This document shows positions 3,178 to 14,595 of a stretch of DNA of 28,840 nt, one piece after another. The translations under genes and the position numbers were made by a program. The notes beneath the pieces are model-generated. The model saw nothing but the letters and a program-made list of their open reading frames with translations, did not search any database and was not told the origin of the DNA. This stretch comes from a virus: positions 1 through 28,840 of IMG/VR virus record IMGVR_UViG_3300046000_005218; one strand, given 5' to 3'. The first letter of the stretch is position 1. Each line of letters opens with the position of its first letter.

Positions 3178-3180
3178 CAA

Positions 3181-3204
3181 AGCCCTCACATTTCTGCAAG
3201 GGCT
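3181..3204. terminator. Hairpin between convergent operons, likely terminator of the minus-strand operon
   Basis: The arms AGCCCT (3181-3186) and AGGGCT (3199-3204) pair over a 12-base loop. Read on the minus strand the hairpin is followed at once by TTTGTTATTT, which fits an intrinsic terminator for the lysis operon. On the plus strand it follows the last gene by three bases but has no U-run, so it would work less well there. Confidence 0.6.
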
Positions 3205-3251
3205 ATGAATCTAATAACTTAACTAACATTGAACGCTGCAAATGTAATAAT

Positions 3252-4464: not shown

Positions 4465-5274
4465 TTAATCAGTGCAAAATCCTGCTTGACAACCGCTTCC
4501 AGTGCCAAAGTTAAAGTCTTGTTGCAAACCTATTGTTTTAATTTGTGCATAAGTAGCTTCTTTTTTCCAAGTAGCGTGTTTTTCTTGGTCTGAAAACCAT
4601 TGCATCTTTTCAGTTTCTAAATCCCAATTTTTACGCAGTTGTTGTAATGGCTTATGAAAACAACCAACGCAATTTGAATCAGATGGAAATATTAAGTTTG
4701 TTGAATCAGCCCATTTTTTTACTTGCAAATGAGTAACTTTATTTTCAATCAATGGAAAATAACCCTCCCTCCATTCTAACTCACCCCATTTATTTCTTAA
4801 TCCATTTTTTGACTTTCCTATGATTCCTTTAAATGATGTGCTTAATCTATCTGCTCTTTCTTTTTCATCGTATCTAAAACCTATACCCATCTTTACCTTT
4901 TCGCCTATATTTTTAAACCACCAGTCCCAAATTGGGCGCATCTTCATTTCAGTTGTGCAAAACCTCCACTCCATATTTGGCATTGCGCTTTTCTTTTTCA
5001 TCATTTTCTCAAATGATAGTCCGTGTACCCAAATAATTTCTTGACCTATCATTTGCTCCAAGTCAATAACTGCTTTTAGTGTCATATCAGATTCAGCAGT
5101 TGCAATAAAATCTTCTCCTATTTTATCGGATATAAATTTTACAAGTGCTTTGTCTTTTGGGGCGCATTTTACATCATCAATTTTAACAAGAGCAAATAGA
5201 TTATAATCAGCAGGGTAATGGGCTGCTAAATAACTTGAGGTTTTACCTCCGCTTAAACTATTTATTGTTTTCAT
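4465..5274 (-). CDS. PP-loop ATPase, PAPS reductase / DndC-like
   Basis: A 269-residue protein beginning MKTINSLSGGKTSS. S8-G-G-K-T-S13 is the PP-loop of the adenine-nucleotide alpha-hydrolase superfamily, which activates substrates by adenylation, usually in sulfur chemistry. A cysteine in FCTTEMK (C106), a CVGC pair (C202, C205) followed by FHK, and C262/C267 near the C-terminus could hold an Fe-S cluster or zinc, as in PAPS reductase-like and DndC-like proteins. True sulfate assimilation is unlikely for a phage; DNA or RNA modification, or interference with a host modification or defence pathway, is a reasonable inference. It lies in the lysis operon between the holin-like gene and a small unknown, two bases from the latter. 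Superfamily confident; substrate unknown. Confidence 0.75.
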   Translation of the reverse strand: MKTINSLSGGKTSSYLAAHYPADYNLFALVKIDDVKCAPKDKALVKFISDKIGEDFIATAESDMTLKAVIDLEQMIGQEIIWVHGLSFEKMMKKKSAMPNMEWRFCTTEMKMRPIWDWWFKNIGEKVKMGIGFRYDEKERADRLSTSFKGIIGKSKNGLRNKWGELEWREGYFPLIENKVTHLQVKKWADSTNLIFPSDSNCVGCFHKPLQQLRKNWDLETEKMQWFSDQEKHATWKKEATYAQIKTIGLQQDFNFGTGSGCQAGFCTD

Positions 5275-9583: not shown

Positions 9584-9925
9584 ATGACAATCAAAGGCAC
9601 AATTAAGCGCATAGGCGCAACGCAAACAGTTAGTGATGGTAAATTCTCCAAACGTGAATTAGTACTCACTACTGCAGACCAATACCCACAGATAGTATCA
9701 GTTCTATTACAACAGAAATCCTGCGCACTTGCAGATTCTTTATCAGTTGGTCAGGACATTGAAGCTCACATTAACATCAGAGGTAGAGAGTGGACATCGC
9801 CACAAGGTGAGGTTAAGGTGTTTAACACGATAGTGTGCTGGAAAGTGGATGCGAATCCGTTTACGCAGACTGAAGACCCGCAAGCAAGCTATTCAAAGCC
9901 GATTTCAACAGATGACTTATTTTAA
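9584..9925 (+). CDS. DUF3127-like single-stranded DNA-binding protein
   Basis: A 113-residue OB-fold protein of the DUF3127 type: GTIKRIGATQTV near the start, KRELVLTTADQYPQ, then INIRGREW and FNTIVCWKV. These resemble the DUF3127 consensus and a short SSB core. The C-terminus is acidic and ends STDDLF, like the acidic SSB tip that recruits partners. It precedes a conserved recombination-associated protein and the YqaJ-like exonuclease, so it most likely coats single strands during recombination and replication. The family call is good, biochemical activity inferred. Confidence 0.75.
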   Translation: MTIKGTIKRIGATQTVSDGKFSKRELVLTTADQYPQIVSVLLQQKSCALADSLSVGQDIEAHINIRGREWTSPQGEVKVFNTIVCWKVDANPFTQTEDPQASYSKPISTDDLF

Positions 9926-9945: not shown

Positions 9946-10413
9946 ATGAACACACAAAAAACACATTTTAAACAACTCCGAAATACCAACTATATCGGTG
10001 GGTGGGATTTAACCGATGCAGACAAAACCGTAACTATTACCAAAGTGGATAAAGAAAAAGTACACGATGGCAAAGGTGGCGAATCCGAATGCTGCATCGT
10101 TCACTTTGCTGAATGCAAACCGATGGTTGCTAATGCTACTAACTTAAAGCGCATTTCAAAACTATTGGGCAGCCCATTTATTGAAGACTGGGCAAACAAA
10201 CAAATAGTGCTTACAACCGAAAAGGTCAGAGCATTCGGTGAGATGCACGATGCGGTGAGGGTGTCAACCAAGCCAGTAGTTAAACCGACATTGACCGGTG
10301 AAGCAATTGAAAAGGCCAAAGCAGCTATCGCTGCGGGATCAGTTACAATAGATGCAATAAAGAAAAAATATAATGTTACTAACGAGGTGGAGGCTCAATT
10401 GACCAATGGATAA
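9946..10413 (+). CDS. Conserved phage recombination-module protein
   Basis: A 155-residue protein. The N-terminal part has GGWDLTDADKTVTITKVDKE, then CCIVHFAECKPMVANAT and LLGSPFIEDWANKQIVL, a pattern I know from phage proteins next to YqaJ-like exonucleases; the last 40 residues are a separate helical tail. It overlaps the exonuclease start by eight bases. A single-strand annealing or accessory role is a reasonable inference, but no RecT, Erf or Rad52 motif is visible. Confidence 0.65.
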   Translation: MNTQKTHFKQLRNTNYIGGWDLTDADKTVTITKVDKEKVHDGKGGESECCIVHFAECKPMVANATNLKRISKLLGSPFIEDWANKQIVLTTEKVRAFGEMHDAVRVSTKPVVKPTLTGEAIEKAKAAIAAGSVTIDAIKKKYNVTNEVEAQLTNG

Positions 10414-11029
10414 GATATTCAGAATACACTGCTCTCAAATCGGGAAGATAATGAGCAACGCAAAAACAAAAGGCGAATTGTCAGCAACGTGCAAAACTTT
10501 CTTAATGGAATGGTATGCCAATGACCGCGAACAAATCCATTCCAAGTACATTATGAAAGGCAACTTAGTTGAGATTGACCTGATTGATTTTATGGCCGAG
10601 CAAATCGGTTTGGGAATGGCTCAAAAAAACGAAGTAACTGTGCATAACGAATGGATGGTAGGCACTTGCGATGTAATCACGAATCACTTAATAGTTGATG
10701 TTAAGGCTGCTTGGTCACGCAAAACATTGCAGCAACAAGCTATTGAGGGAATGAATAGCGACTATGAGTGGCAAGGTAGAGGTTATATGGCACTTTATGA
10801 GCGACCTACCTTTATCGTGTTTCATGGCCTAATGAACACACCAGAGGAGGCTAACTACGATGGCGAGGTTGTTTATGATGACTTACCCGATAACGAAAGA
10901 TGGGTTGCCTATCAGGTGCAACGTGATGTAACTATTGAGCAATTAATTATTCAACGTGTGATTCAATGCAGAGAATGGCTTGAAGAATATGATAAAAAAA
11001 TAGTTGCTACTTTGGGTAAGATTCATTAA
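10406..11029 (+). CDS. YqaJ / lambda-exo-like PD-(D/E)XK exonuclease
   Basis: A 207-residue nuclease. Visible motifs of the lambda-exo/YqaJ fold: E56 in KGNLVEIDLIDF, D89 in GTCDVIT, then D98-V-K100 in IVDVKAAWS, and Q123 in EWQGRGYM. This is the catalytic set of the family (magnesium-dependent 5' to 3' resection of DNA ends). With the SSB-like protein and the accessory gene upstream it makes a recombination module. The -7 box of the downstream RNA element overlaps its stop codon. Confidence 0.85.
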   Translation: MDKIFRIHCSQIGKIMSNAKTKGELSATCKTFLMEWYANDREQIHSKYIMKGNLVEIDLIDFMAEQIGLGMAQKNEVTVHNEWMVGTCDVITNHLIVDVKAAWSRKTLQQQAIEGMNSDYEWQGRGYMALYERPTFIVFHGLMNTPEEANYDGEVVYDDLPDNERWVAYQVQRDVTIEQLIIQRVIQCREWLEEYDKKIVATLGKIH

Positions 11030-11034
11030 GTTTG
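11003..11034 (+). promoter_or_regulatory. Promoter of RNA element 1
   Basis: GTTG (11003-11006), 20 bases, TAAGTTTG (11027-11034): -7 consensus, acceptable -33. The expected start is at about 11041, exactly where the first hairpin begins, and the -7 overlaps the exonuclease stop. Confidence 0.5.
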
Positions 11035-11040
11035 CATTGT

Positions 11041-11133
11041 TGTTTCGGTTCGACACTAAAGAAACATAAACTTATTGGCCTATTTAATGGAGTGTAGAAG
11101 TCGAACCCTACACGAAATTAGATAGGCTTTTTT
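11041..11133 (+). ncRNA. Candidate structured phage RNA 1 (terminated, kissing-loop)
   Basis: Hairpin 1: TGTTTC (11041-11046) with GAAACA (11061-11066), its 14-base loop holding GGTTCGAC (11047-11054). Hairpin 2: GCCTATTTAAT (11078-11088) with ATTAGATAGGC (11117-11127), 11 pairs with one G-U, containing an apical stem GTGTAG (11092-11097) with CTACAC (11108-11113). Its ten-base loop contains GTCGAACC (11100-11107), the exact complement of the loop of hairpin 1. Six U follow (11128-11133). So the two loops can kiss by eight pairs, and the molecule ends in an intrinsic terminator. A promoter ends six bases before it. It may be a small RNA or an attenuator in front of the gene at 11147. No known family recognised. 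Confidence 0.5.
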
Positions 11134-11146
11134 AATTTTTATAAGT

Positions 11147-11296
11147 ATGAAAATATTTTTAGTAAAATCCCCAAGCGGGAAAATCCTTCCAACATGGGCC
11201 GAAACAATTTATCATGCAATCCAAAAAGCAATGGTAGTGGATGGCTTTAATTACAATCAAATTGAGTACAATAAACTTAATACTGCGAAAAAATGA
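11147..11296 (+). CDS. Small protein (49 residues), unknown
   Basis: ATG 11147 lies 13 bases after the U-run of RNA element 1; the product begins MKIFLVKSPSGKILPTWAET and its TGA overlaps the next ATG (ATGA). A helical middle (YHAIQKAMVVDGF) and a basic end. Its coupling to the following nuclease gene supports real translation. The gene may be controlled by readthrough at the terminator in front of it. Confidence 0.6.
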   Translation: MKIFLVKSPSGKILPTWAETIYHAIQKAMVVDGFNYNQIEYNKLNTAKK

Positions 11297-11856
11297 AAAC
11301 AGAAAAAGAATTGGTTAATCAAATGGTAGTGCACTTTAAAAAGTATTTTGAAGTCCAAAGAGAAGTAGTAAGCAAATGTAAAAAAAACAGAATTGATTTG
11401 CTTTTGACTATTGATGGTAAATATCATTTTGGTATTGAATGCAAAAGGCCCGACAAAAAAAGAGGCGAGGAAATCGGTGAATATGTTTTGCAAGCCAATA
11501 AATACACAAAAGCAGAATGGGAATATAGACCAGGCGAATTTGTAAAAGCACTTATATTTATTTACCCTGCATTATCTTATAACTATTTTATACTTAATGA
11601 AGAATCTATATTTATTGATGGTATCGAATATCATAAGGATAGACATCATAAATTGCATGATCATAATACTGTTAATTCATTTATTTGTAAAATTGCGGAT
11701 ATTGGTGAAGTAAGAAAGAAATCATTAGGCTATCAGTTTTCTTTTATGAACAAACCAATATTTGAACATATAATTTACCCACATACGGGTAAAGATTATT
11801 CAAAGGTTCATGAAGTTAATTATAATTTCTATATGAATAAACTATGCAACCAATAA
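11293..11856 (+). CDS. PD-(D/E)XK family nuclease
   Basis: A 187-residue protein. The catalytic core is visible in residues about 33-71: D35 in RIDLLL, E49-C-K51 in FGIECKRP and Q67 in LQANKY, the restriction-endonuclease-like D...ExK...Q set. The C-terminal half is aromatic and basic with no further motif. It may be a structure-specific endonuclease of replication or recombination; unlike the YqaJ-like protein it lacks that family's conserved GTCD. It starts inside the short gene before it (ATGA) and overlaps the primase gene by 13 bases. Confidence 0.7.
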   Translation: MKTEKELVNQMVVHFKKYFEVQREVVSKCKKNRIDLLLTIDGKYHFGIECKRPDKKRGEEIGEYVLQANKYTKAEWEYRPGEFVKALIFIYPALSYNYFILNEESIFIDGIEYHKDRHHKLHDHNTVNSFICKIADIGEVRKKSLGYQFSFMNKPIFEHIIYPHTGKDYSKVHEVNYNFYMNKLCNQ

Positions 11857-12722
11857 CATTCAACTACTACGAAGCCGATATCAAACGTAGCACTCCACTT
11901 GGTAGTGTTACGCTTGAATATCTTATAAACGCTATTAGAACACCTAAAAAAGATATCCGCAATGTATTTGAGGAGATAAGGATTGCAGAGGAAAATAAAG
12001 ACATGGCTAAAAAACAAGCATTAAAGTCAAAACTATACTCGTTTACTCCATGTGTTTATGTTAACGGGCCGCGTAAGTATTCCAACATTCAACATTGGAC
12101 TGGCTTACTTGTTTTAGACTTTGACCATTTAGCATCCGATGTGGCAGTTGAATTTAAAGAATATTTATTCAATGAATATAAATACATCATAACCGCGTGG
12201 CTATCGGCTTCAAGGCATGGTGTTCGCGCACTGGTTAAGATTCCGATTTGCACTTCGGTAGATGAATTCAAACAATACTATGCAGGAATTGAGCGACACC
12301 TTAACTGTTATAATGGGTTTGATACAGCACCAAAGAACTGCATACTACCAATGTTTATTAGTTACGATGCCGACATTCTACACAGAAACGATGCTCAAAC
12401 TTGGTCAACAAAACATATTGAAATCGTTAGGCCTGCAGTAAAACAATATATTATTGATGACAAAACTTCTGTTATAGAAAAGATTATTTCAAAGCGTATT
12501 AATACCATAACCGATACTGGGCATATTATTTTACGTGCTACGAGTTACTTGCTCGGAGGTTATGTTGGCGCAAATTATATTGATTATAATGATGCCATTT
12601 CTTTAATCAATAACTTAATTGATTCGCAAAGCTACCTTTCTAAAAAGCCTGATGTGTATAAACAAACCGCAAAACAAATGGTGGATAAGGGTTTAAATTT
12701 TCCTACTTATTTATCTAAATAA
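11844..12722 (+). CDS. BT4734/VirE-N-like primase domain protein
   Basis: A 292-residue protein. The N-terminal 180 residues match the BT4734 / VirE N-terminal type of primase-like domain common in Bacteroidota: GLLVLDFDHL with the metal-binding D92-F-D94, SRHGVRALVKI (residues 123-132) corresponding to the S-x-H step, then NCILPMFISYDAD. This is an archaeo-eukaryotic primase relative. It is normally coupled to a helicase, here found as a separate gene 316 bases downstream. It likely makes replication primers; no zinc motif is visible. The overlap with the nuclease gene indicates one operon, and RNA element 2 follows its stop. Confidence 0.75.
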   Translation: MQPITFNYYEADIKRSTPLGSVTLEYLINAIRTPKKDIRNVFEEIRIAEENKDMAKKQALKSKLYSFTPCVYVNGPRKYSNIQHWTGLLVLDFDHLASDVAVEFKEYLFNEYKYIITAWLSASRHGVRALVKIPICTSVDEFKQYYAGIERHLNCYNGFDTAPKNCILPMFISYDADILHRNDAQTWSTKHIEIVRPAVKQYIIDDKTSVIEKIISKRINTITDTGHIILRATSYLLGGYVGANYIDYNDAISLINNLIDSQSYLSKKPDVYKQTAKQMVDKGLNFPTYLSK

Positions 12723-12723
12723 A

Positions 12724-12754
12724 TTTAGGAATTAAAAATATTTAATTATATTTG
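12724..12754 (+). promoter_or_regulatory. Promoter of RNA element 2
   Basis: TTTA (12724-12727), 19 bases, TATATTTG (12747-12754). The -7 is a full match, the -33 imperfect. Expected start is about 12760, at the first paired strand of the RNA. It overlaps nothing coding. Confidence 0.55.
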
Positions 12755-12758
12755 CACC

Positions 12759-12860
12759 GCTTACTCACTTATGAAAATATTTAAAAATCCTATCATTCAC
12801 ATTGCCAATTGTTGCGACCGCAACGAGTGGGTAAGCCTTTGTGTTTGATAGGTATTTTTT
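12759..12860 (+). ncRNA. Candidate structured phage RNA 2 (A-B-A'-B' pseudoknot with terminator)
   Basis: Strand A, GCTTACTCACT (12759-12769), pairs with A', AGTGGGTAAGC (12826-12836), 11 pairs with one G-U. Strand B, AAAAAT then CCTATCA (12783-12795), pairs with B', TGATAGG (12846-12852) and, after one bulged base, ATTTTT (12854-12859), as a terminator-like stem with a U-rich end. Hairpin C, GTTGC (12811-12815) with GCAAC (12820-12824), lies between B and A'. A encloses B and B' lies past A', so the whole is a pseudoknot or two exclusive folds. A promoter ends four bases before it. Element 1 has the same order and the same CCTAT/ATAGG stem core. Confidence 0.5.
12771..12848 (+). CDS. Possible 25-residue ORF inside RNA element 2
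   Basis: ATG 12771 opens a frame ending at TGA 12846-12848. It reads MKIFKNPIIHIANCCDRNEW and ends VSLCV, with three cysteine codons, two adjacent. It spans the paired strands of element 2, so it may be a leader peptide whose translation decides the fold, or it may be chance. No clear ribosome binding context beyond A-rich sequence after the ATG. Low confidence. Confidence 0.25.
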   Translation: MKIFKNPIIHIANCCDRNEWVSLCV

Positions 12861-12863
12861 ATT

Positions 12864-13052
12864 ATGGAAAACCCAAAAACAAAAAAAGAAAGATTTGATT
12901 ACTTTGCAGGATTAGCAATGCAAAGTTTTATTTCAAAAATGGAAGAAAGTTATAAAGATTTTGAAGAACTTGACATAGAAATTATATGTTTTGCTGCAAG
13001 AGAATTTGCTCAAGAAATGATAAAACAAATTGACGAAAATGAACAAATTTAA
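12864..13052 (+). CDS. Small conserved phage protein, unknown
   Basis: A 62-residue helical protein with the pattern FDYFAGLAMQSFISKMEES and a C-terminal FAQEMIKQIDENEQI, similar to small proteins (YFAAMAL type) found beside replication genes in many phages. Its start follows the terminator of RNA element 2 by a few bases, so its expression may depend on readthrough. It overlaps the helicase by 14 bases. Confidence 0.6.
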   Translation: MENPKTKKERFDYFAGLAMQSFISKMEESYKDFEELDIEIICFAAREFAQEMIKQIDENEQI

Positions 13053-14595
13053 GAAACCCGAAAAGAATTCAATCTACAATCCAATAGATTGGTTTAACGA
13101 ATTTGGAACGATGCAACAAATATTTGAGGGCGATAAAAAATGTATTTCGTTTTCAGAAACTGAAGCAACATATCCAGTTAGTGATGCAAGTGATTTGTCT
13201 AAAAGTCCTAATTTTATTTTAAATAAAAACGGAAAGATTGACATTAAGAAGTCAAACCCATTTGATTTAGCAACTGGACAAAGCTTCAGTAAATTTATTT
13301 TACTTACAACAGTAAAATTTAAAGGCGATTACTTTCAAGCAATGAGTCACGTTTCTTACAATATAATGCAAAACGAAATACCTTACATTCGCGTTGGCTC
13401 CGATTATTTTAAAGTAATTAAAAAAGATGACCGCTATTCAGGAACTAATGTTATTTTAAAGTCTTGGAAAAAAGATGAAATAAAAGAAGATCATACGAAA
13501 AATATACTTTGCAAAATTTATAAGTTTGATGACTTCACAATTATTCCTAATAATGTGACTTTTATTCCATCTAAAAACAACTGCTATAATTTGTATGCCA
13601 AATTCCCACATACAAAATTTAGTGATACTGTTTACACCAATGACATTAGTGTTACACTTGGTTTGTTAAGTCACATATTTGGTGAGCAGTTAGAATTAGG
13701 TTTGAAGTACATGAAGTTACTTTATGAGTATCCTTGTCAAATATTGCCAGTGCTTTCGTTAGTTTCAACTGAAAGAGAAACAGGTAAGACTACTTTTTTA
13801 AATTATATTCAGATGTTATTTGGCGAAAATTCAACACTTATCAATCCAAGTGACTTAATGAGTAGCTTTAACGATGCTTATGCCACAAAGAATATAATTA
13901 TGATTGATGAAACCGTAATTGAAAAGCAACACGTTGTTGAAAAACTTAAATCGTTGGCAACTGCAAAAACTATTTCAGTATCGCAAAAGTTTGTGCAACA
14001 TTACAGCGTTCCATTCTTTGGTAAAATTATCGTTTGCACAAATAAGGAAACCGATTTTATGCGAATTGATGACGAAGAAATTCGCTTTTGGATTAGGAAA
14101 ATAAACCCAATCGTTGGCAAAAAAAATACAAACATTGAAAATGATTTGTTTAACGAGATACCTAAATTCCTAAAATATTTAGAACAACTGCCTGATATTG
14201 ACTTTTCAAATTCGCGCATGGTATTCACGCAGGAAGAAATACAAACTGATTCGCTGGAGCTTATCAAAAAAGAAAGTAAAAACGGATTGAGAAAAGAACT
14301 TGAAATATACATTGATGACTTTTTTAACAATAACGATGTAAATGAGTTTGAAGCAACTGCAAAAGATATTAAAGAAAGGTGGTTTGACAAAGAAAGAGAA
14401 AAGATGTCTTACATCCTTAAAGTGCTTAAAAATGAAATGAAAATGACACCACAACCGAATAAGTATTATTTTCCATTTAATAGCAATAATTACCTTGAAA
14501 AAAAGAAAGGCACTCCGTTTCTATTTGTGAGGGAAAATACTCAAACCGTTCAAAATGAATCTTATAGCGATTATGAAAACAGACAACCATATTAA
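13039..14595 (+). CDS. SF3-type replicative helicase (phage primase/helicase family)
   Basis: A 518-residue protein; TTG 13030 is in frame but ATG 13039 is preferred. The ATPase core is in the second half: Walker A STERETGKTT (residues 243-252), Walker B NIIMIDE (285-291) and the third SF3 motif KIIVCTN (329-335), followed by an RFW motif at 349-351. The first 200 residues have no visible primase motif and may be an N-terminal domain for origin binding or primase contact. A hexameric DNA helicase in phage replication is the usual role; primase activity here is probably given by the BT4734-like gene upstream. AT-rich sequence with repeats follows directly. Confidence 0.8.
   Translation: MNKFKKPEKNSIYNPIDWFNEFGTMQQIFEGDKKCISFSETEATYPVSDASDLSKSPNFILNKNGKIDIKKSNPFDLATGQSFSKFILLTTVKFKGDYFQAMSHVSYNIMQNEIPYIRVGSDYFKVIKKDDRYSGTNVILKSWKKDEIKEDHTKNILCKIYKFDDFTIIPNNVTFIPSKNNCYNLYAKFPHTKFSDTVYTNDISVTLGLLSHIFGEQLELGLKYMKLLYEYPCQILPVLSLVSTERETGKTTFLNYIQMLFGENSTLINPSDLMSSFNDAYATKNIIMIDETVIEKQHVVEKLKSLATAKTISVSQKFVQHYSVPFFGKIIVCTNKETDFMRIDDEEIRFWIRKINPIVGKKNTNIENDLFNEIPKFLKYLEQLPDIDFSNSRMVFTQEEIQTDSLELIKKESKNGLRKELEIYIDDFFNNNDVNEFEATAKDIKERWFDKEREKMSYILKVLKNEMKMTPQPNKYYFPFNSNNYLEKKKGTPFLFVRENTQTVQNESYSDYENRQPY

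Follow-up and report, generated by a model that had tools for sequence, protein, structure and literature searches.

The 28,840-nt window (the whole stretch of viral DNA analysed, positions 1 to 28,840 of IMG/VR record IMGVR_UViG_3300046000_005218) was found to carry two short intergenic stretches, E1 and E2, whose predicted products are folded RNAs. Each has a promoter and a terminator of its own, and in both the terminator appears to be tied to long-range RNA pairing. Comparison with related sequences indicates that E1 and E2 are members of a group of interchangeable elements, so far undescribed, which occurs in phages of Flavobacterium and relatives and probably sets the transcription level of the following gene. 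Seven sequence families were recognised, E1, E2 and five more with related layouts, several of which are found in place of E1 or E2 at one and the same border between genes. The reading that best fits, with a probability of roughly 55%, is that of a promoter followed by an attenuator-like leader, the next gene being transcribed by readthrough. Both elements are present in the window as an earlier note on this DNA had described them, with a TAnnTTTG box followed by strands in the order A-B-A'-B', and its length of 95–105 bases agrees with the predicted ~95 nt (E1) and ~103 nt (E2).

11004-11006, + strand: TTG near -35 of E1 (sequence)
11027-11034, + strand: -7-like box of E1, TAAGTTTG, which overlaps the exonuclease gene's stop codon (sequence)
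11039-11133, + strand: predicted E1 RNA, ~95 nt, a kissing-loop RNA ending in an intrinsic-terminator-like hairpin (29-sequence alignment A1, pair counts)
11041-11046, + strand: E1 P1, 5' strand, pairs with 11061-11066; its loop carries K (covariation)
11047-11054, + strand: E1 K (A strand), GGTTCGAC; 4 of 8 K/K' pairs changed on both sides
11061-11066, + strand: E1 P1, 3' strand (pair counts)
11078-11088, + strand: E1 P2, 5' strand (B); 8 of 11 pairs changed on both sides
11092-11113, + strand: E1 P3 hairpin (11092-11097 with 11108-11113), loop carries K'; 5 of 6 pairs changed on both sides
11100-11107, + strand: E1 K' (A' strand), GTCGAACC (pair counts)
11117-11133, + strand: E1 P2, 3' strand (B', 11117-11127) and T-run (11128-11133) (sequence, pair counts)
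11147-11296, + strand: first gene behind E1, 49 aa (MKIFLVKSPSGK), one among several variable genes found there
12747-12754, + strand: -7 box of E2, TATATTTG (sequence)
12759-12861, + strand: predicted E2 RNA, ~103 nt, an H-type pseudoknot ending in an intrinsic-terminator-like hairpin (four distinct sequences)
12759-12769, + strand: E2 K (A strand), GCTTACTCACT; 3 of 11 K/K' pairs changed on both sides
12789-12801, + strand: E2 P2, 5' strands CCTATCA (B, 12789-12795) and CACA (12798-12801); 2 of 11 pairs changed on both sides
12811-12824, + strand: E2 P3 hairpin GTTGC-gacc-GCAAC; 1 of 5 pairs changed on both sides (GUUGC/GCAAC to GUUAC/GUAAC)
12826-12836, + strand: E2 K' (A' strand), AGTGGGTAAGC (pair counts)
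12840-12860, + strand: E2 P2, 3' strands TGTG (12840-12843) and TGATAGG (B', 12846-12852), and T-rich tail
12864-13052, + strand: gene directly behind E2, 62 aa
3178-3246, - strand: E8, a related slot on the opposite strand, with -7 box TACATTTG (3239-3246), a short RNA and a plain terminator hairpin

Alignment of 29 distinct E1 sequences (A1, only copies with full body and T-run, L199 being left out) showed that 96.1% of the cells pair and that 18 of the 31 pairs have changed on both sides; these counts are slightly lowered by a one-column shift of L147 near K' introduced by MAFFT. Two-sided cells numbered 171; shuffles gave 52.2, and sliding the partners gave no more than 18. Judged from this covariation, E1 is a kissing loop between the 5' hairpin and the hairpin inside the terminator stem, and its helices are supported, P1 through one pair only (1 of 6; GUUUC/GAAAC to GUUAC/GUAAC in 5 of 29 rows). 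The K types differ within E1 (GGTTCGAC, GATTCCAC, GGTCTCAC and others). As the loop strands co-vary with their partners in the same molecule, no invariant target outside it constrains them, and the earlier suggestion of an action on host RNAs found no support in the phage sequences compared. For E2, four distinct sequences gave 108 of 108 cells paired and a two-sided change in 6 of 27 pairs (one gap placed by hand), so that on the same kind of evidence its helices are supported and E2 is an H-type pseudoknot. Its predicted +1 is the first base of K; that of E1 was deduced from the position of the box.

E1 and E2 do not form a single family. E1 has an extra 5' hairpin and only E1, not E2, is a kissing loop, while a covariance model of E1 built without use of K/K' (R1) gave no match at E≤1 to copies of E2 or E4–E7 and matched E3 only at 0.79. 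The CCTAT/ATAGG stem on which the kinship had been based is real in both window elements, but E1 homologues carry GCCCTT, GCCCGT, GCCTGT or ACCCAT in its place; since it varies within E1, it was rejected as a sign of kinship and the likeness of the two stems is taken as coincidence.

Chance, that is ordinary terminators near promoters that have been over-interpreted, is barely credible as an explanation, and for E1 and E2 it is refuted at the level of structure on the sequence comparisons made here. A scan for promoter, A-B-A'-B' order and T-run over the window plus 37 stretches from 19 related contigs (38 stretches in all) gave 25 hits at a score of at least 42 and 38 at a score of at least 38, double counts, antisense copies and a few hits in coding sequence included, against 0 and 1.5 in dinucleotide shuffles of twice the length. 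A strict kissing descriptor combined with the promoter was run on two sets of relatives that have some contigs in common and found 20 places in one (618 kb) and 37 in the other (698 kb), against 1 and 0 in double-length shuffles; unrelated viral contigs (374 kb) gave 0 and their shuffles 1. Without the promoter condition the strict descriptor was much less clean (33 vs 14 and 62 vs 19 in the relatives and their double-length shuffles; 3 vs 6 in cultured phages). What speaks for chance comes from the looser scans: at its lowest score the loose descriptor gave 107 hits where 47.5 were expected, and the loose kissing scan 172 against 128. The background of the latter was high (53 vs 18 at score 46, 12 vs 0 at 55), and the strict scan took over from it. 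Chance is contradicted by the shuffle and slide controls, by the covariation and by E1-model matches in phages outside model building. A simple promoter/terminator scan, which covers sigma-70 promoters and terminator loops of 3–8 bases only, listed neither E1 nor E2.

A search with the E1 model did find further members outside its training set, namely in the cultured Flavobacterium phage hattifnatt9-1 (E=3.9e-14), whose E1 was overlooked by blastn, and in Cellulophaga phage phi10:1 (E=1.3e-5). Against the phage collection, blastn gave no match for E1; for E7 and E4b it returned one weak match apiece, to Staphylococcus, and both were put down to chance. In the first six cultured-phage records (Arctus_1 in part, 11b to 35.0 kb, phi10:1 to 50.0 kb) a looser scan printed 19 hits, four of which (11b, phi10:1, RAP44 and 6H) were judged convincing by eye, while of the three hits from the strict kissing scan two had a promoter-like box, and only that in phi10:1 was convincing; no element was accepted in P12024L or Arctus_1 in these scans. 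The 18-kb records of morran9-1, Harreka_1 and hattifnatt9-1 were chosen by DNA match to phi10:1/11b queries and are not a random sample. A pattern scan of cellular genome contigs, centred on no Bacteroidota genome and too strict in its pattern for a fair prophage test, pointed to a single place, in a Butyrivibrio MAG; this was rejected as an E1, having by eye neither A' nor terminator, and the E1 model finds nothing in the MAG.

The loop-loop kiss of E1 appears to recur in E5, E6 and the phi10:1 element, and in E3 and E4 K' is placed in a hairpin loop. E4 showed 20 two-sided cells against 5.4 in shuffles, and in 10 of its 18 rows one base is missing in K and one in K'; this matched deletion, which may be one event, is the sole support for K in E4. 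K of E3 occurs in two main matched versions (no formal count) and that of E5 is invariant among 14 sequences. In E7 both K and K' are invariant in seven sequences, and covariation thus lends its kiss no support. In E8 no K/K' pairing was seen by eye, and in some other phages the E8 slot is occupied by E5 and a cargo gene. Behind the exonuclease or a 164-aa gene, E1, E4, E4b or E6 was present in 72 of 81 contexts, four of them named by descriptor score only (two of which read as E4b-like); eight of the other nine have E7 or E1 further on, and the last (L147) has E1 elsewhere in the contig. Where E1, E4 and E6 occupy one slot the promoter flanks are common and the cargo genes differ; families are exchanged within one slot. 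The genes behind the elements are variable, and no element family is tied to a single downstream gene. The earlier idea of a class of phage RNAs is upheld by homologues with covariation, the seven families, their repeated placement at gene borders and the cultured phages that carry them.

Position also supports the leader reading. A gene on the same strand starts at most 22 nt from the T-run in all 121 contexts examined from seven families (E1 51/51, E2 8/8, E3 15/15, E4 23/23, E5 14/14, E6 3/3 and E7 7/7 distinct contexts), which leaves no room for a second promoter. The published promoter consensus is -33 TTTG/-7 TAHHTTTG with G at -5, and in promoters of Flavobacterium johnsoniae G at -9 is virtually absent (PMC6847099). 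A box TAnnT(T/C)T(G/A) was present in 99 of 100 contexts counted (one E5 and no E2 among them); within E1 (n=51) the window-type box TAAGTTTG occurs in 19 contexts and TATATTTG in 21. In each of five intervals from four cultured phages the only -7 box precedes the element. This is a count of TAHHTTTR boxes, and promoters of another type, or antiterminated transcription from a distant upstream site, may still be present. The element of morran9-1 and that of hattifnatt9-1 lie behind a plain terminator (by eye) and hold the sole -7 box before the primase operon, and the intervals of phi10:1, 11b and hattifnatt9-1 (helicase) likewise have one box each, before the element. The plain terminator E8 offers a natural contrast, since all 13 MEATL genes behind it have their own -7 box after the terminator.

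From these arrangements we infer that Bacteroidota phages carry a set of exchangeable promoter-leader cassettes, to which E1 and E2 belong. Transcription would begin at the host-type TAnnTTTG promoter directly before the structure, and the first strand, K, would pair with K' in the loop of the terminator stem P2. A polymerase stopping at P2 and the U-run would leave a compact RNA of ~95–105 nt, and otherwise it would continue into the gene, whose start codon lies within ~20 nt. As K' is made before the second strand of P2, the K:K' pairing is in a good position to determine the frequency of timely P2 closure, and may do so alone or with a phage or host factor, in either direction. Of the two functions guessed at earlier, regulation of readthrough is the better supported, by gene-start spacing and single -7 boxes, and is put forward as a probable role. 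The order of promoter, leader, intrinsic-terminator-like hairpin and gene is that of an attenuator. No mutually exclusive antiterminator was found in the E1 consensus fold without the B' strand: P1, P2, P3 and K:K' use different bases and B stays unpaired when B' is removed (28 of 29 rows, L147 left out), which argues against a classic antiterminator. Several observations count against a leader: the terminators look strong, the close ATG spacing possibly reflects phage compactness, the downstream gene is not fixed per family, the E1 box in the window, with G at -9, is off-consensus, and the annotation of morran9-1 places a hypothetical protein, gp042, over the element.

The main rival holds that the terminated RNA of ~100 nt is itself the product of a stand-alone small RNA gene, its nuclease-resistant kissing or pseudoknot fold acting on protein or RNA and the downstream gene being reached by leaky readthrough or antiterminated phage transcription. 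This is possible, though the odds are against it. In its favour, the terminated RNA can hold every conserved helix at once, with no mutually exclusive helix found, the 5' ends predicted by the published start rule (PMC6847099) lie at most two bases from the first helix in E1, E2, E5 and E6, and the promoter-terminator unit E8, behind which no gene was found in the window, indicates that such units can exist without a leader role. Set against it are the same-strand gene just downstream in every context, the lack of a second promoter for that gene, unlike the genes behind plain E8, and the swapping of unrelated sequences in one slot, which is hard to reconcile with a sequence-specific target of the RNA. 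It is unlikely, but conceivable, that the kiss also forms between molecules, the accumulated terminated RNA pairing through its K or K' with a nascent leader to switch the other transcript. Each phage would then measure its own RNA through a self-antisense attenuator, each K type would be a separate channel, and co-infecting phages would show allele-specific cross-talk like plasmid incompatibility; no locus was seen with the same element type twice, which agrees with what such a system would predict.

Leader-peptide attenuation, in which a ribosome on a short frame through the element blocks closure of P2, is very unlikely. The window E2 does have a frame of 25 codons that opens at 12771 and closes within B', and by eye E7 has an open frame running from its 5' hairpin into the T-run; but in L003 a stop interrupts the E2 frame and in L208 a frameshift does so, with every pair intact, an ATG lies between B and A' in 8 of 29 E1 sequences, and by eye ATG is absent from the E5 and E6 bodies and present in 3 of 18 E4 bodies. 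Even less credence is given to the elements being mainly recombination borders, with a common promoter and start-codon flank for cargo exchange and the fold a by-product of terminator evolution. The common flanks and differing cargo of E1, E4 and E6 fit this, but if the fold were a by-product, the two-sided changes and the matched deletion would not have left long-range K/K' pairing intact.

Riboswitches with a pseudoknotted intrinsic terminator, such as the fluoride riboswitch, have the same order of promoter, pseudoknotted leader, terminator and gene, around a conserved ligand pocket; the phage elements differ in being unrelated, exchangeable sequences with related layouts and without an Rfam match. 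The put RNA of phage HK022 is also a structured RNA just behind an early-operon phage promoter, but it suppresses downstream terminators and its own end lacks a terminator hairpin and U-run, whereas E1 and E2 themselves end in a terminator-like hairpin and T-run. Type III antitoxin RNAs (ToxI-like) are tandem pseudoknot repeats before a ToxN-like toxin; here a locus has one copy of any element type it carries, with variable genes behind. Rfam 15 gave no match in the window at E up to 1 and, at gathering score in six loci (E1–E7 copies and phages 11b and phi10:1), only tRNAs, in phi10:1. In the leader of pT181-type plasmids, as described in PMC3753616, a hairpin in a kissing interaction controls transcription of the gene behind it; it resembles E1 in having a kissing hairpin before a gene, but there the partner is an antisense RNA acting in trans, and the system includes an antiterminator sequence, while both kiss loops of E1 lie in one RNA and no antiterminator was found in its fold. 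Candidate structured RNAs of the human microbiome include Bacteroidetes motifs near phage domains and terminator-like palindromes (PMC8040213); its main text lacks the word 'pseudoknot' and the passages compared describe no promoter-pseudoknot-terminator unit, with overlap possible in the supplements. The small RNAs of Flavobacterium psychrophilum come from the same host group and a sigma-A promoter (PMC9723704), and its main text, from which 'phage' is absent, gave no link to elements of the E1/E2 type. In the open PMC papers searched, supplements apart, no description of such elements was found.

If the leader reading is right, these phages control replication and accessory genes through leaders with a kept fold and freely swapped sequence, and Bacteroidota genetics would gain a natural set of promoter-leader parts. 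An intramolecular kissing loop that acts on an intrinsic terminator would then be open to direct testing in phages already cultured, those of Flavobacterium sp. LMO6/LMO9 and of Cellulophaga baltica.

Two predicted RNAs, E1 and E2, each preceded by a TAnnTTTG box, lie in a recombination/replication module at 9–15 kb of the window, a 28,840-base virus record of IMG/VR. The features of the module are as follows.

9584–9925: DUF3127 protein
10406–11029: exonuclease (PHROG 5715)
11039–11133, plus strand: E1, between the exonuclease gene and a 49-aa gene
11293–11856: protein with weak, below-cut-off HSDR_N/PDDEXK matches
11844–12722: BT4734-N protein, 292 aa
12759–12861, plus strand: E2, with the BT4734-N gene before it and a 62-aa gene after it
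13030–14595: DUF5906 primase-like protein

Rfam gave no match anywhere in the window at E up to 1, and ARAGORN found no tRNA genes in it. A PAPS reductase-like protein (PHROG 424) is encoded at 4465–5274 on the minus strand.

Forty-six viral loci were collected via the 292-aa protein, and blastn found E1 in 36 of 47 sequences, the window included, while a pattern scan of IMG/VR disclosed 53 E1 stretches. The alignment comprised 29 distinct sequences, each with full body and T-run. The 5' hairpin P1 (UGUUUC/GAAACA) has a loop of 14 nt, the first 8 of which form K, one strand of a long-range pairing, and a linker of about 12 nt leads to the terminator stem P2 (11 pairs, one position weak), enclosing the hairpin P3 (6 pairs), the loop of which is made of two bases and K', the partner of K. 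Pairing was retained in 96.1% of 899 cells, and 18 of 31 pairs showed two-sided change (K 4/8, P2 8/11, P3 5/6, P1 1/6), the matched K/K' versions including GGTTCGAC/GTCGAACC, GATTCCAC/GTGGAATC, GGTCTCAC/GTGAGACC, GCTCTCAC/GTGAGAGC and GGTTCAAC/GTTGAACC. Two-sided cells numbered 171, against 52.2 ± 6.7 in shuffles, figures that are not probabilities because the aligned sequences are related, and against 5–18 with slid partners, a control that retains this relatedness. The count of further pair types was not in excess over shuffles. When B', the 3' strand of P2, was left out, the consensus fold contained P1 and P3 only, and no antiterminator was found.

E2 bodies occurred in four distinct versions. 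Here K is 11 nt long and begins at the predicted RNA start, P2 (CCTATCA/TGATAGG) is extended by CACA/TGTG, and P3 (GTTGC-gacc-GCAAC) is placed ahead of K'. All 108 cells were paired and 6 of 27 pairs had two-sided change, in an alignment of four sequences with a hand-placed gap; a 25-codon frame within E2 was disrupted in two of the four.

The earlier note had suggested that E1 and E2 could belong to a class of phage RNAs with the order A-B-A'-B' (K, P2, K', P2), and this is supported by homologues with covarying pairs, by further families that recur at gene borders and by cultured phages that carry such elements. A scan of the window and 19 related contigs for promoter, A-B-A'-B' and T-run returned 38 hits at a score of at least 38 (1.5 expected) and 25 at a score of at least 42 (0 expected), antisense copies, overlaps and some coding-sequence hits being included. 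Together with a second locus set, gathered with a DUF3127 alignment, it revealed further sequence families of related layout.

E3: slot (exchangeable position at a gene border) of E2, with K' in a hairpin loop
E4 and E4b: slot of E1
E5: separate slot, on the leftward genes
E6: slot of E1
E7: behind a 164-aa gene, with one further stretch in between

In E1, E5 and E6, K sits in the loop of a 5' hairpin. A clear 5' hairpin is lacking in E4, whose K' occupies a hairpin loop. Pairing in E4 held in 99.8% of cells, and two-sided cells numbered 20 where shuffles had 5.4; pairs with two-sided change were four, no excess over shuffles, and the sole support for its K was a matched deletion. E7 matches the layout, yet its K is invariant. 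An open frame (MIQIL...), possibly a leader peptide, runs across most of E7 (L208 3659–3752 and six other copies).

When a promoter-like box was required within 34 nt, a strict kissing descriptor, compared with shuffles of double length, gave 20 and 37 hits in two sets of relatives (618 and 698 kb, some contigs in common) against 1 and 0 in shuffles, 2 in six cultured phages (252 kb), one of them convincing, against 0, and none in unrelated viral contigs (374 kb) against 1. Without the box, the relatives gave 33 and 62 against 14 and 19, the cultured phages 3 against 6, and the unrelated contigs 10 against 12.

The E1 model, built without knowledge of K/K', matched phage phi10:1 of Cellulophaga baltica (E=1.3e-5, 47 sources searched) and the Flavobacterium sp. 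LMO9 phage hattifnatt9-1 (E=3.9e-14, 7 sources searched), and K complements K' in both; the phage collection has the hattifnatt9-1 E1 in seven records, with duplicates among them. A second element type precedes the primase operon; in hattifnatt9-1 its K reads GTGAGACG, in morran9-1 it reads GTGAGAAG, and K' matches in both. DNA similar to this stretch occurred in 50 records, 46 from Flavobacterium and four from Cellulophaga, the Cellulophaga matches shown covering the gene-start part only. Similar units were seen in Flavobacterium phage 11b and Olleya phage Harreka_1. Rfam at gathering score returned only tRNAs for phi10:1 and nothing for 11b. Candidate units of promoter, H-type pseudoknot and terminator, with long-range helices of 15–18 bp, were noted on the minus strand in Riemerella phage RAP44 (L287, about 30559) and Flavobacterium phage 6H (L288, about 7947).

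In contexts distinct in sequence, though not independent phages, an element was present behind the exonuclease in 37 of 38, and in 35 of 43 behind the 164-aa gene that replaces it in other phages, the remaining eight having E7 or E1 farther on. The E2 slot, behind the 292-aa gene, held E2 in 5 contexts, E3 in 13 and nothing directly in 19, where the next gene mostly abuts. E5 filled its slot in 14 of 34, each time with a gene after it. A given next gene was seen with different families ahead of it, and a given family ahead of different genes. A 703–706-aa protein, often downstream of E4, E4b or E6, is tentatively taken for a fused primase because of where it lies and because its L068 copy has a 25% match to the 292-aa protein. 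In related phages (L277, L213 and others) one such protein may correspond to two of the window, of 292 and 521 aa (11844–14595); in that case the E2 slot would separate the two parts. Several direct and inverted CACATTGA-like words, perhaps a replication origin or operator, were seen by eye in intergenic DNA ahead of E7 or its preceding gene (L248 2890–3130, L208 3380–3630, and the corresponding region of L268 and L253).

The working of the elements was considered by comparison with a simpler unit, E8, matched in 30 contexts across all loci.

3178–3246, minus strand: E8, located where the leftward genes end and made up of a promoter-like box, a short RNA and a plain terminator

No gene was found behind E8 in the window. 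Some other phages have E5 and a cargo gene ahead of it, for example with a product starting MNVLSLFDGM, presumably C5 methyltransferase-like. Where a MEATL gene follows E8 it has its own -7 box (13 of 13 cases), and the other 17 contexts are without this gene. Behind E1–E7, in contrast, all 121 contexts have a gene start within 22 nt of the T-run, and a further promoter therefore does not fit. In each of five intervals, drawn from four cultured phages, the sole TAHHTTTR box was the one ahead of the element, and a plain terminator was seen by eye upstream of it in morran9-1 and hattifnatt9-1. Together these observations point to readthrough as the simplest route, by which polymerase would pass through the element into the next gene. 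K' would be transcribed ahead of B', and the K:K' pairing survives sequence change, which makes it the likely control point. Alternatively, the short terminated RNA is itself the product, a reading in line with the lack of a competing antiterminator and with E8, a unit that has no gene behind it in the window. In presumed mode of action, the closest known system, from the passages on it in PMC3753616, is the pT181 transcription attenuator with its kissing interaction; since no antiterminator was found, the elements are not classed as attenuators.

Promoter facts used here come from passages of PMC6847099 and PMC9723704. The main text of PMC7077304, which describes the Baltic phages, does not contain the words 'promoter', 'terminator' or 'non-coding', and a search of open PMC papers found no published report of these elements. 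A structured leader or small RNA with a terminator is already known in kind; what is new is how the elements are built and that unrelated sequences of this build replace one another.

The cultured phage records read carry no RNA annotation at the element sites. In morran9-1 the hypothetical protein gp042 is annotated over promoter and RNA element (L291 8867–9010, MN812219.1 14157–14300) and probably does not correspond to a real gene. For the hattifnatt9-1 helicase the annotated start falls within the E1 RNA (L293 8990, MN812207.1 about 9441), and translation more likely begins at the in-frame ATG directly past the T-run (L293 9026).
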